Shown here piece after piece: positions 52,666 to 57,920 of a DNA stretch of 64,000 nucleotides; position 1 is the stretch's first letter, and each line of letters begins with the position of its first letter. A program made the translations under genes and the position numbers. Origin of the DNA: Natrinema pellirubrum DSM 15624 (lineage in GTDB: Archaea; Halobacteriota; Halobacteria; Halobacteriales; Natrialbaceae); the NCBI RefSeq assembly GCF_000230735.2, contig NC_019962.1:2480001-2544000 (forward strand), written 5' to 3'. The notes below the pieces were generated by a model. That model was not told the DNA's origin. It ran no database searches and saw only the letters and a list, made by a program, of their open reading frames with translations.

Positions 52666-52816
52666 ACTCGATTGGCCAGGACTTCGAGGCGTTTTGCGAC
52701 TGGCTCGACCGGGCCGCGTAATCGTTTGACACCGTCCAGCGGACTCCCGAATCTTACTCGTTAACGGCCTCTGCTACCAGTACTTTCTTAGGGTGACAAT
52801 TCAAGTGTCGCGTATC

Positions 52817-55800
52817 ATGAGTCAGGCGACGCTGTCGGACCGCCCGTACACGAACTCGAATCTCTTCTCCGGCTACTATCTCGACGAGCGGATCGAAGAC
52901 CGCGAGGAGTGGGACTGCGACGCCGCCGCGAGCGAGGCCCTCAAGGAACTGCAGGACCTGTACGATCTCGAGTCTGGACTGGTCGACGGCTACAAGGAAG
53001 ATCCGTTGATCGACAATTGGATCGACGAGGTCCTCGAGATCCTGGGCTTCGGGACGAACGTCGAAACGACGCTGCCCGAGGGCGGGGGCTACGTCGACGT
53101 GTTGCTGTTCGAGGACACCGAGGCGCGTCGCGACGCTGCGGAGGTCTACTTGAGTTCCGAGGACACGACCGATCTGTTCGACCGCGGGGTGGGGTTGGTC
53201 GAGGCCAAGCAGTGGGACGCTGACTTCACGACTCGCTTCAGCGATCAACGACCGTATCGCAACGCTTCCCACCAGATCAAACACTATCTCGAGCGGACGC
53301 CCGAGCGGATTCAGTGGGGGATCCTGACCAACGGCCGCAAGTGGCGACTCTACGGGACGAAGGATTACGAGACCCAGACCTACTACGAGATCGATCTGCC
53401 GGAACTGCTCGAGCGCGGCGACCTCGAGGCGTTCAAATACTTCTACCTGTTCTTCCGGCCGGCGGCGTTTCGCGAGTCGGGCGGGACCACCTTTCTCGAT
53501 TCGGTCCGGTCGGAAAGCGAGACGGTCGCCCAGGAACTCGGGGAGGACCTGCAGGACAACGTCTTCACCGCCCTGCGGGTACTCGGCCGGGGCTTCGCCG
53601 AGACGAACGACCTCGCGATCGAGCCAGGAGACGACGACGGGCTCGCGGAGCTGAAAGAGCAGTCGCTGGTGTTGCTGTATCGGTTGATGTTCGTCCTCTA
53701 TGCCGAATCGCGCGGGCTGATCCACCCCGAGGGTGGGGACGCCGTCGCGGAGTACGAGGAAAACTTTAGCCTCGACGAACTGCGCCTCGAGATCCACGAG
53801 GAGATCGGCGAGGTCGACGAGGGCTTTGCCGACGCCTACAGCGACCACTCGACGACGATGTGGAGCCGTCTCGAGGACCTGTTCCGGCTGATCGACGAGG
53901 GTGAGGAATCGCTGGGGATTCCGCCGTACAACGGCGGGCTGTTCAACCGGGACAAACACGAGTTCCTGGCCGACCACGAGGTCAGCAACCGCTATCTCGC
54001 GGAGGTCATCTACCGGATTTCGACGACGGAAAACGACGAGGGACGGTACGTGTTGGCCGACTACGCCGACCTCGACACGCGGCATCTGGGCAGCGTCTAC
54101 GAGGGGCTGCTCGAGCATCAGTTCCGGATCGCCCCCGAGGCGTATGCCGCGGTCGCGGAAGACGGCGGGCAGGTCTGGAAGCCCGCGACAGAGGTCTCGG
54201 TCGCGGCGGCGGTCGAGACCGTCGACGAGGGCGGGCTCTACGTGGTCAACGACGAGGGCGAGCGCAAGGCCACGGGGGCCTACTACACGCCGGACTACGT
54301 GGTGACCTACATCGTCGAGGAGACGGTCGGGCCGCTGGTCGACGAGATCAAAGCCGACCTCGAGTCGCAGGGCTTCGAGCCCGGTACCCACGAGTATCTG
54401 GGGGCGTTCTACCGGCGGGTGACGGACCTGAAGCTGCTGGACCCGGCGATGGGCAGCGGTCACTTCCTCACGCGGGCGACGGAGTACCTCGCCCAGCAGG
54501 TCATGGAGGAGGTGCGCGAACTCGAGGAGGCGACGGCCTTCGACGAGCAGCGGGTGCGCCGGGACGTGGCCAAGGAGTGTATCTACGGCGTCGACCTGAA
54601 CGGGATGGCCGTCGAACTCGCGAAGCTCTCGATGTGGCTCGAGACGCTCGCGGCGGACCAACCGCTTGCCTTCCTCGATCACCACCTCAAGGCGGGCAAC
54701 TCGCTGGTCGGCTCGGACGTGACCGAGGTTCTCTCGAGCGAACACGCCGACGACGACGGGCAGTTGACCCTACAGCAGGCGCTGGCCCGCGTTCGCCAAG
54801 ATACGCTCGAGCATGTCATGGAGCGCATGCAGGAGTTGCTCGAGATCGACAACGAGTCGCTCGAGGACGTCAAGTCGATGGAGGAGATCTACGACGAGGT
54901 GCGGGCCGACGCGTTCTACCAGCGGCTGTTCGAGGTGGCGAACGTCCACACGGCCGAGCGGTTCGATCTGGACGTGCCCGAGGGGGCCTACGAGCGGCTG
55001 GCGCGGGCGATCGACGACGACGAGGCGTGGGCCGAGATGCGCGAGGAGCCGTGGTTCCAGACGGCGCAGGCGATGAGCGAGGACGAGGCGTTCTTCCACT
55101 GGGAGTTGGAGTATCCCGAGGTGTTCTTCGACGATGATGGGGAGAAGCGGGCTGATGCTGGGTTCGATGCGGTGATCGGGAATCCGCCGTACGTACAAAT
55201 CAAAGACAGTTCCGAGAATTACTTAAGAAATCAATACAAATCCACACAGTACAAGATTGATGCTTTTCATGCTTTCATTGAACAAGGCATAATTCATCTT
55301 TCTGAGGGTGGAAAGTTCGGATATATCGTCCCAAAGCCATGGCTTACATTAGAAAATACGGAGGGACTTAGAGACTATATTTTTGAAGAAACATGGATTA
55401 GACAGATCGTCCAGTTTAAAGAGCCAGTGTTTGATGATGCAACGGTTGACACAATAATACCTATCCTTACAAAATCTGGACATAGAGGGGCTACTAAGAT
55501 AGTAAATGTGGAGAATGCTGGTAACGAATTGTTAGACAAATCGATTGTAGAGCGTGATAATCAATCGGAACTTAGAGAATCTGCTGGAAAGATAGAAATT
55601 AGGCAGTCAAAAGGAGAAGAGCGAATTATAGGGAAAATATCAGATAATTCAACAGATTTAAATAATATAGCTTCAGTTTCGATAGGAATCCAAGCATATG
55701 GGCAAGATGACCACACGGAAAACCAAATAAAGAATCGAGTTTTCCATTCTGACACAAAAGAGACTGAACGACACGTTCCACTTTTGTCTGGTGACAATAT

Positions 55801-56890
55801 TCGGCGATATCGTATTAAAGATCTTGAAGAGACATGGATTGACTATGGTAATCATCTACACCGAGAACGAGAGTGGAAGTATTTTGAGGGAGAGCGCATA
55901 TTTATCAGAGAAATAACTGGATCTGGGCGTTATAAAATACATTCCTCATTTGTCAACCGGGATGCAGTCTGTTACAAGACTGTACTTAGTGTTATTCCTG
56001 AAGAAAACGTGTCTGCGCAGTCGTTAGTTCCAGTAATCAATTCGTCAATTATGTCTTGGTATTTCATAAGAACGTCAAATAAGATTGTCACTGATAACTT
56101 CCCGCGAATCACGTTAAATGACGTTGAAGAGTTACCGATTCCAGATCTCGATAGATCCATAGAATCACTCACCATCGAACAGAATAATAGTGCAATTGAT
56201 ATTATCGATGGAAAAGGAGAAAACAGTGTGCGGGAATTGATGTCAGACATAAGTAATTCACACGCAGAGAATATCCAACTACGAGAGAATTTAAACCTAA
56301 ATATAATTGACCATTTAGGTGTGTATGAGGATGGAGTACTGATTACAGATCTCGGATTTGCTCAACCTGCTGAAGGGGTATCAGATTCGATTCTCTCGAA
56401 CACATCCGAGGACTACGAGAACCTCCGCATCGGCACTGTCGAAATCATCCGGAAATCCCCGATATCACTCGAGATCCACCTCACAGCCCGCTACAAACCG
56501 GACAACGAGGACGAGTACGAAACCGACCGCTGGGGCTACACCGAAACCGAGCCCCTGCCGGCCCTCGAGATTTCGGATCTCACCGAAACCGAGGCCGACC
56601 TGATCGAGGCCTTCGTCCCCGTGGCCGTCGACGAGGCCGGCGGCTTCGCGAACTTCCGCGAAACCGCCACCAAGACCAACTCGCCCGTCGATCGCCTCCG
56701 GAAGCTCACCCTCCCCGCCGTCGACGACGTTCGGGACGGCCTCGAGAGCTACCTCGAGACGAAAGCACGCGCGGAGGAACTCGAGGCAAAGATCGAGAAA
56801 ACCGACGATCTGATCGATGAGATCGTCTACGAACTCTACGGGCTGACTGACGAGGAAATCGCAATCGTCGAAGAAGCCGTCGGCGAATAG
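52817..56890 (+). CDS. Type IIG restriction-modification enzyme (Eco57I-like, single polypeptide)
   Basis: 1,357 residues. An N-terminal PD-(D/E)xK nuclease (Asp94 in GGYVDVLLFED, Glu129 and Lys131 in GLVEAKQW), a helical linker, a gamma-class N6-adenine methyltransferase with motif I DPAMGSGHFL (from residue 542), VDLNGMAVELAKLSMWLETL, and catalytic NPPY (789-792), then a target-recognition region and a C-terminal helical tail. It both methylates and cuts DNA. The recognition part (about 792-1193) is strongly AT-rich, unlike the rest. No separate specificity subunit or methylase gene accompanies it. ATG 52817 gives the MSQATLSDRPYTN start; the frame is intact throughout. Confidence 0.93.
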   Translation: MSQATLSDRPYTNSNLFSGYYLDERIEDREEWDCDAAASEALKELQDLYDLESGLVDGYKEDPLIDNWIDEVLEILGFGTNVETTLPEGGGYVDVLLFEDTEARRDAAEVYLSSEDTTDLFDRGVGLVEAKQWDADFTTRFSDQRPYRNASHQIKHYLERTPERIQWGILTNGRKWRLYGTKDYETQTYYEIDLPELLERGDLEAFKYFYLFFRPAAFRESGGTTFLDSVRSESETVAQELGEDLQDNVFTALRVLGRGFAETNDLAIEPGDDDGLAELKEQSLVLLYRLMFVLYAESRGLIHPEGGDAVAEYEENFSLDELRLEIHEEIGEVDEGFADAYSDHSTTMWSRLEDLFRLIDEGEESLGIPPYNGGLFNRDKHEFLADHEVSNRYLAEVIYRISTTENDEGRYVLADYADLDTRHLGSVYEGLLEHQFRIAPEAYAAVAEDGGQVWKPATEVSVAAAVETVDEGGLYVVNDEGERKATGAYYTPDYVVTYIVEETVGPLVDEIKADLESQGFEPGTHEYLGAFYRRVTDLKLLDPAMGSGHFLTRATEYLAQQVMEEVRELEEATAFDEQRVRRDVAKECIYGVDLNGMAVELAKLSMWLETLAADQPLAFLDHHLKAGNSLVGSDVTEVLSSEHADDDGQLTLQQALARVRQDTLEHVMERMQELLEIDNESLEDVKSMEEIYDEVRADAFYQRLFEVANVHTAERFDLDVPEGAYERLARAIDDDEAWAEMREEPWFQTAQAMSEDEAFFHWELEYPEVFFDDDGEKRADAGFDAVIGNPPYVQIKDSSENYLRNQYKSTQYKIDAFHAFIEQGIIHLSEGGKFGYIVPKPWLTLENTEGLRDYIFEETWIRQIVQFKEPVFDDATVDTIIPILTKSGHRGATKIVNVENAGNELLDKSIVERDNQSELRESAGKIEIRQSKGEERIIGKISDNSTDLNNIASVSIGIQAYGQDDHTENQIKNRVFHSDTKETERHVPLLSGDNIRRYRIKDLEETWIDYGNHLHREREWKYFEGERIFIREITGSGRYKIHSSFVNRDAVCYKTVLSVIPEENVSAQSLVPVINSSIMSWYFIRTSNKIVTDNFPRITLNDVEELPIPDLDRSIESLTIEQNNSAIDIIDGKGENSVRELMSDISNSHAENIQLRENLNLNIIDHLGVYEDGVLITDLGFAQPAEGVSDSILSNTSEDYENLRIGTVEIIRKSPISLEIHLTARYKPDNEDEYETDRWGYTETEPLPALEISDLTETEADLIEAFVPVAVDEAGGFANFRETATKTNSPVDRLRKLTLPAVDDVRDGLESYLETKARAEELEAKIEKTDDLIDEIVYELYGLTDEEIAIVEEAVGE
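55192..56395 (+). other. AT-rich replaced specificity segment within the type IIG gene
   Basis: Right after the NPPY codons the gene turns from GC-rich to AT-rich (AAAGACAGTTCCGAGAATTA and on), with A/T common at third positions, and returns abruptly to GC-rich at about GAGGACTACGAGAACC. The frame is unbroken. The encoded part is the target-recognition domain, rich in Asn, Ile, Lys and Ser compared with the flanks. Confidence 0.9.
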
Positions 56891-57354: not shown

Positions 57355-57525
57355 TTACTCGAAGCCGACGAACGTCGCCGGCGGCACCGAACAGCCACAG
57401 GGCTGGAGGGTACTCGAGTCGGGGCCGGTAACGACCGACACCGTCACCGGCTCGCCACAGCGGGGACAGTCCGGCAGCGACCAGTCGTCGTCCGACTCCC
57501 GGTCGCTCAACCGATCCCTACCCAT
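57355..57525 (-). CDS. Small CPxCG-type zinc finger protein
   Basis: 56 residues. An acidic N-terminus (MGRDRLSDRESDDDWSLPD) precedes two cysteine pairs, CPRCG (20-23) and CGCS (43-45), spaced as in haloarchaeal small zinc-ribbon proteins, which have been shown in other species to affect growth and biofilm traits. The ending PPATFVGFE is short and hydrophobic. Divergent from the structured region at 57624. Confidence 0.75.
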   Translation of the reverse strand: MGRDRLSDRESDDDWSLPDCPRCGEPVTVSVVTGPDSSTLQPCGCSVPPATFVGFE

Positions 57526-57595
57526 CGCGATCACCGCGTGCGGCGCGCAGCGTCGAGACTCGTCGCGTCGGGCGATTTGTGCGTCGTGCGGGACG

Positions 57596-57602
57596 TTTAT
57601 AT
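57596..57602 (+). promoter_or_regulatory. TATA box before the candidate RNA
   Basis: TTTATAT in GACGTTTATATCCCGG. Transcription should begin about 57622-57628, just before the folded region. Confidence 0.6.
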
Positions 57603-57623
57603 CCCGGAAGTAGTAATGTAATC

Positions 57624-57721
57624 ATGGCAACCGAATCCCTGTGGGGGATTTGGAAGCCAGTCTCGGGTGCCTATACACCCGGGGCATTTCGATGCGCCCC
57701 CTGTTTCGGAGTCTGACTTCC
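57624..57721 (+). ncRNA. Candidate structured RNA with three-way junction
   Basis: Helices: hairpin A AATCCC/GGGATT (57634-57650, loop TGTGG); P1 GGAAG-C-CAG-T-CTC (57652-57664) with GAG-T-CTG-A-CTTCC (57709-57721), 11 pairs and two 1x1 mismatches; P2 GGGTG/CACCC (57665-57680); P3 GGGG-CAT/ATG-CG-CCCC with a TTCG tetraloop (57681-57700). P1, P2 and P3 meet without unpaired bases except the strand 57701-57708. A 30-codon leaderless frame (MATESLWGIWKPVSGAYTPG and on) also begins at 57624, but its codon use is less GC-biased than real genes here. I match no known RNA class. Confidence 0.4.
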
Positions 57722-57920
57722 AGTTAGTACGTTTAGCTGTTCGGACTTATATCTACTGTTGGCTCGGTGGAAGGGAGGTCGCTCGAGCGATCCCGCGCGG
57801 CGCGTTCCGGCGGGTCTCGAGCGTCGCCGGTTCCGGACGGCGGGTGGCGGCCTCGAGGCGGCCCGTCGCGATCGACCGGCCAGCCACAATCTATATCCGC
57901 GTCGTCGCGAGAGAGGGGGC

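Follow-up and report, generated by a model that had tools for sequence, protein, structure and literature searches.

The window analyzed here, a stretch of 64,000 nucleotides from Natrinema pellirubrum DSM 15624, contains at positions 57624-57721 a segment that can be drawn as a hairpin and a compact three-way junction, and the question arises as to which strand carries this structure and what it does there. The first-pass annotation took it for a plus-strand RNA gene with its own TATA box at 57596-57602. The comparison with related loci indicates that the feature is most likely the structured 5' leader of a minus-strand mRNA, approximately 100 nt long, which extends from P1 (57721) to an ATG codon (57625) (Table 1). 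The first-pass annotation is supported in part. In the broader view, the leader appears to be an undescribed, control-like RNA of salt-loving archaea, heading genes for tiny zinc proteins, mobile elements and HRAMP (haloarchaeal RAMP).

Many haloarchaeal mRNAs are leaderless. If borne out, these organisms would possess a natural regulatory leader that is structured, widespread and without a match in Rfam. A single RNA would then connect a large group of tiny zinc proteins with defence and with mobile elements, and the array-less HRAMP would gain a constant RNA feature.

Table 1. Features of the leader locus, in coordinates of the window
Feature	Position	Strand	Remark
TATA-like element GATATAAG of the putative leader promoter	57746..57753	- (reads left)	fixed spacing to P1
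Structured 5' leader RNA (probable)	57626..57721	-	minus-strand minimum free energy (MFE) fold is the junction plus H1; covariation in HRAMP leaders and Natrialbaceae-type copies
P1 helix	57709-57721 with 57652-57664	-	part of leader junction
P3 helix	57696-57700 with 57681-57685	-	part of leader junction
P2 helix	57676-57680 with 57665-57669; loop 57670-57675	-	part of leader junction
H1 hairpin	about 57632-57651	-	immediately 5' of AUG
35-codon ORF (MITLLLPGYKRPARR...)	57518..57625	-	begins at AUG after H1
H0 hairpin (CGGGAU AUAAAC GUCCCG)	57589..57606	-	inside 35-codon ORF; paired stems in relatives
Small zinc-ribbon protein gene (CPRCG...PCGC motif)	57355..57525	-	probably coupled to upstream ORF

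Relatives of the element and their distribution

The first-pass annotation had called for a search for homologues and a covariance model, and both brought relatives to light, with compensatory changes in P1 and P2. BLASTN located five sites in the genome of the window and matches in 71 of the 125 genomes of the family. A covariance model built from 33 copies (R1) also identified five copies in the window's genome; across 391 Halobacteria genomes, it detected relatives in 96. The scan scored up to ten places per genome, so that copy numbers are lower bounds. Distant R1 matches retain the leader architecture. A second model (R2), trained only on the minus strand of HRAMP leaders, detected leaders in 184 of the 391 genomes. 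It recovered the window copy (L001) with an E-value of 0.004, which is rough like all R1 and R2 E-values (short calibration), along with other copies of the window's genome. The family to which the window's own copy belongs (f1) is referred to below as Natrialbaceae-type.

The leader falls in no known Rfam family. A search of the whole window against Rfam release 15 at the gathering threshold returned two tRNAs only, neither of them near the element. Around the element, no relevant family appeared at E-values of up to 10, in agreement with the initial impression of an undescribed RNA, and 12 distant loci gave no match at E-values of up to 1.

Outside the loci described below, leaders precede varied small genes, often accompanied by a divergent small helix-turn-helix gene, and some precede operons resembling mobile elements. 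Gene calls beyond the window were made with a simple codon-usage script, and mobile-element and provirus labels reflect gene content judged by eye. A search of phage records with a proviral locus produced weak matches only. The P2 core pattern of the Natrialbaceae-type RNA recurs exactly in three viral contigs from IMG/VR (L147, L148 and L149). In a relative of the window's genome (L007), two modules are arranged in tandem at 1561-1662 and 2036-2138, 475 bp apart. Plasmid pHSAL1 of the tractable Halobacterium salinarum carries a clear leader copy (L277:2038-2135; 80 bits), and a diverged candidate is located 5' of VNG_RS11530 on pNRC200 of the same species (L276:1980-2130; 8.8 bits, E 0.4).

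Association with HRAMP operons

At six of the loci matched distantly by R1 (L079, L081, L083, L084, L085 and L088), the leader was found 5' of a Cas7-like RAMP gene, whose match to Pfam RAMPs (E 0.0021) is below the cut-off. The same operon contains a DnaQ-like nuclease and further genes, and we take it to be HRAMP. The name rests on gene content, which matches the description given in the HRAMP passages of PMC8730458 and PMC12669027. These passages present HRAMP as an array-less CRISPR-like system; they treat its proteins and contain no mention of RNA.

As an independent check, a search with Cas7 alone located HRAMP Cas7 in 102 of the 391 genomes. Among 30 cas7 loci picked by protein alone, R1 matched 25, always at one spot 5' of cas7, and R2 matched four of the remaining five, which places a leader at 29 of the 30 loci; the exception, L144, has a 407-codon ORF between the expected leader site and cas7. 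In a set of named genomes that partly overlaps the first one, the leader was present at 39 of 40 HRAMP loci. The leader stops at the initiation codon of the first HRAMP gene. Inspection by eye revealed leader variants before a second HRAMP clade too, including one in the window's genome (L150). The window's own leader copy lies outside any HRAMP operon. Two HRAMP/leader loci (L098 and L102) were seen by eye beside genes resembling Dnd-type and helicase/PLD defence genes, suggesting that these neighbourhoods are defence islands.

A leader that is nearly constant at the operons of a system described as array-less (in the passages of PMC8730458 and PMC12669027) could, once processed, be the guide or scaffold RNA of the HRAMP complex, copies elsewhere being relatives or mimics. 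We assign very little probability to this idea: most many-copy genomes of the window's genus lack HRAMP Cas7 by profile, many leader loci have other downstream genes, and no variable stretch resembling a spacer and as long as a guide was observed. A related proposal, in which the leader RNA or a cut product partners the HRAMP complex and the copies place mobile-element and zinc-ribbon genes under the control of HRAMP or of the zinc-ribbon protein, appears very doubtful as well. H1 may resemble haloarchaeal CRISPR repeats; covarying changes in that strand speak against its reading as a CRISPR repeat or a CreA-like guide.

Strand, fold and putative promoter of the RNA

Both strands of 57624-57721 fold well. 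Calculated energies were -45.6 kcal/mol (z -3.7) for the plus strand and -44.8 kcal/mol (z -3.5) for the minus strand, and each exceeded 200 of 200 shuffles in stability. The hairpin and three-way junction initially noted on the plus strand are possible and go far beyond the shuffled controls, but the junction is the MFE fold on the minus strand only, the plus-strand MFE fold consisting of three consecutive hairpins with no junction. The junction is also the MFE fold of most HRAMP leaders folded in the minus orientation. In the alignment of HRAMP leaders in that orientation, pairing amounted to 91% in P1 and 100% in P2, and 11 pairs showed compensatory changes in which both sides were altered. 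The covariation of 0.317 compares with 0.191 after shuffling, and none of 500 shuffles reached the observed value. Compensatory changes were also observed in the element of Natrialbaceae-type copies, in an alignment read on the opposite (plus) strand. RNAalifold, applied to a MAFFT alignment of mixed families, recovered P2 alone.

Wobble pairs bear on the choice of strand. In the interior of P1 (columns 6-13), the HRAMP leaders contain 20 G.U pairs on the minus strand and 0 of the opposite kind, although these 20 come from related sequences and do not equal the number of independent events. Counted for the plus strand, the Natrialbaceae-type copies alone contain 48 G.U versus 32 C.A, which favours neither strand, and the count for the H1ext duplex leans towards the plus strand, mostly through one pair outside the core helix in related sequences. 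The minus strand is favoured by the interior-P1 wobbles taken together with the promoter-like sequence that reads into the leader and the location of the leader end at start codons.

This promoter-like sequence is a TATA-like ACTTATATCTACTG block that lies exactly 24 nt past the end of P1 in all but one of the 35 copies of the Natrialbaceae-type alignment (34 copies) and 23 nt past it in the 35th, despite RNA lengths in these copies ranging from 90 to 112 nt. On its far side, at the position of a BRE, the sequence CAGTA is conserved. Distant leaders have a BRE/TATA-like sequence about 28-30 nt 5' of P1 that is likewise directed into the leader. We infer that the element listed in Table 1 serves as the leader promoter and that transcription would start near 57721, the 5' end of P1.

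The element is multicopy and dispersed and has inverted repeats nearby, as might be expected of an operator array or a mobile-element end acting at the DNA level. The P1 wobble asymmetry, the nested covariation and the start-codon placement are features of RNA, and an unsystematic look revealed neither target-site duplications nor a transposase pattern; a DNA element is therefore exceedingly improbable. As in cis-regulatory mRNA leaders, the secondary structure is conserved with compensatory changes and lies on the coding strand, between a promoter-like element and a start codon, ahead of varied downstream genes.

The first-pass annotation had named a 30-residue plus-strand peptide as the alternative to an RNA. 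It is excluded by the many insertions and deletions among copies that are not multiples of three.

Downstream genes and proposed control of translation initiation

In the window, H1 is directly followed by the minus-strand AUG at 57625-57623 (CATG, 57623-57626), and an ORF of 30-79 codons opens at the corresponding AUG in all 50 copies. A divergent CPxCG/PCGC ORF adjoins 45 of these 50 copies, and CSxCG variants were noted at two more. Its Pfam matches are below the cut-off only, and the downstream product of the window has the same motif pattern as the haloarchaeal small CPxCG zinc-finger proteins; unlike these, the window gene is associated with a leader RNA and with an upstream ORF that overlaps it. 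Among the 44 copies in which the stop codon of this ORF and the start codon of the zinc-ribbon gene could both be identified, 43 show an overlap of the two, mostly of 4 or 8 nt and in three copies of 11 or 14 nt; the remaining copy has a 5-nt gap instead. The overlap is kept while the ORF length varies, which is best explained by translational coupling of the two genes. The plus-strand neighbours downstream differ between copies. A large plus-strand ORF of the window (52793-56890) resembles a methylase/restriction-type defence gene, and parts of its homologues lie close to leader copies in L006, L014, L049, L067, L231 and L233.

The short ORF appears to be constrained as RNA. The H0 hairpin is situated at nt ~19-39 after the AUG, and its stems differ between relatives yet still pair. 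Its z-scores, obtained with mononucleotide shuffles and in the first case from a set of related sequences, were 15.3 for Natrialbaceae-type, 10.2 for proviral-type, 6.7 for other and 2.2 for HRAMP loci. The ORF positions A29, C36 and G37 are 92-97% conserved in 37 mobile-element-type loci that encode unrelated proteins, and even more so in HRAMP. This conservation despite unrelated proteins points to an RNA-level constraint inside the ORF. Protein-level selection on the conserved peptide MIxxxLPGYKRPAR is doubtful, since the same nucleotides form H0 and silent changes are few.

H0 also bears on the plus-strand TATA box of the first-pass annotation. The sequence TTTATAT is indeed present at 57596-57602, but it corresponds to the loop region of H0 within the minus-strand ORF. 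A plus-strand small RNA transcribed from this site and acting in trans appears quite improbable. It would agree with the near-invariance, in Natrialbaceae-type copies, of this TATA-like sequence 27 nt 5' of 57623 and with the good fold of the plus strand; the stretch is, however, accounted for by H0 and is missing from HRAMP leaders, in which the P1 wobbles agree with the minus strand alone. Moreover, the plus-strand MFE fold lacks the junction, and the end of the element coincides with the start codons of genes on the minus strand. Neither a structure favoured on the plus strand nor a promoter specific to it was found. The idea of an undescribed structured RNA stands, with its compensatory changes and lack of an Rfam match, whereas its assignment to the plus strand, its promoter and its status as a separate small RNA gene are incorrect or lack support: the junction MFE, P1 wobbles, start codons and promoter-like element place the RNA on the minus strand.

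Transcription of both strands, with the variable P2 loop setting copy specificity by analogy with plasmid copy-control antisense RNAs, is a reading we regard as unlikely. The P2 stem is conserved around a loop of 6-7 nt that varies among copies, and AT-rich stretches flanked by inverted repeats occupy the plus-promoter site at Natrialbaceae-type and proviral-type loci. H0, however, accounts for the inverted repeats, nothing resembling a promoter is present at that site in HRAMP leaders, and a variable loop equally fits a loop that is free of constraint.

The feature is probably the beginning of a minus-strand mRNA, comprising some 97 nt up to the AUG, that works in cis as a control element of translation initiation, through a switch or a bound factor. 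It resembles translational riboswitches and protein-responsive leaders in that the 5' leader is structured, conserves a junction, shows compensatory changes and may have a competing helix at the AUG. It differs from them in the paired element (H0) within the coding region and in its downstream genes, which are of zinc-ribbon, mobile-element and HRAMP type and do not form one metabolic pathway; a ligand is only conjectured. The sole natural archaeal riboswitch experimentally shown as of PMC8241225 is the fluoride riboswitch of Thermococcus kodakarensis.

In the proposed mechanism, the mRNA would present in order the three-way junction (P1, P3 and P2), H1, the AUG and, within the coding sequence, H0. 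While its 5' end is paired in P1, the AUG-adjacent strand would be free. Opening of P1 would allow its inner strand (GGCUUCC in Natrialbaceae-type copies) to pair with the bases directly 5' of the AUG, and such pairing may impede access of the ribosome. Either a small molecule, as in a riboswitch, or an RNA-binding protein could provide the signal. The target in the window would be the 35-codon ORF coupled to the zinc-ribbon protein, and elsewhere the HRAMP and mobile-element operons.

A pairing score of at least 6 between the AUG-abutting bases and their own leader was obtained for 34% of the leaders, compared with 12% when partners were swapped. Several HRAMP leaders break the AUG-proximal alternative helix. 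The alternative pairing is consequently supported but not general, and a mutually exclusive switch common to all leaders is weakened, since some leaders retain the AUG-side helix and others do not. The calculated cost of unpairing the 5' strand of P1 averaged 6.5-7.3 kcal/mol. On the basis of this cost and of the AUG-side pairing, we propose, with moderate confidence, that translation may be controlled through a P1/H1 switch or a bound protein.
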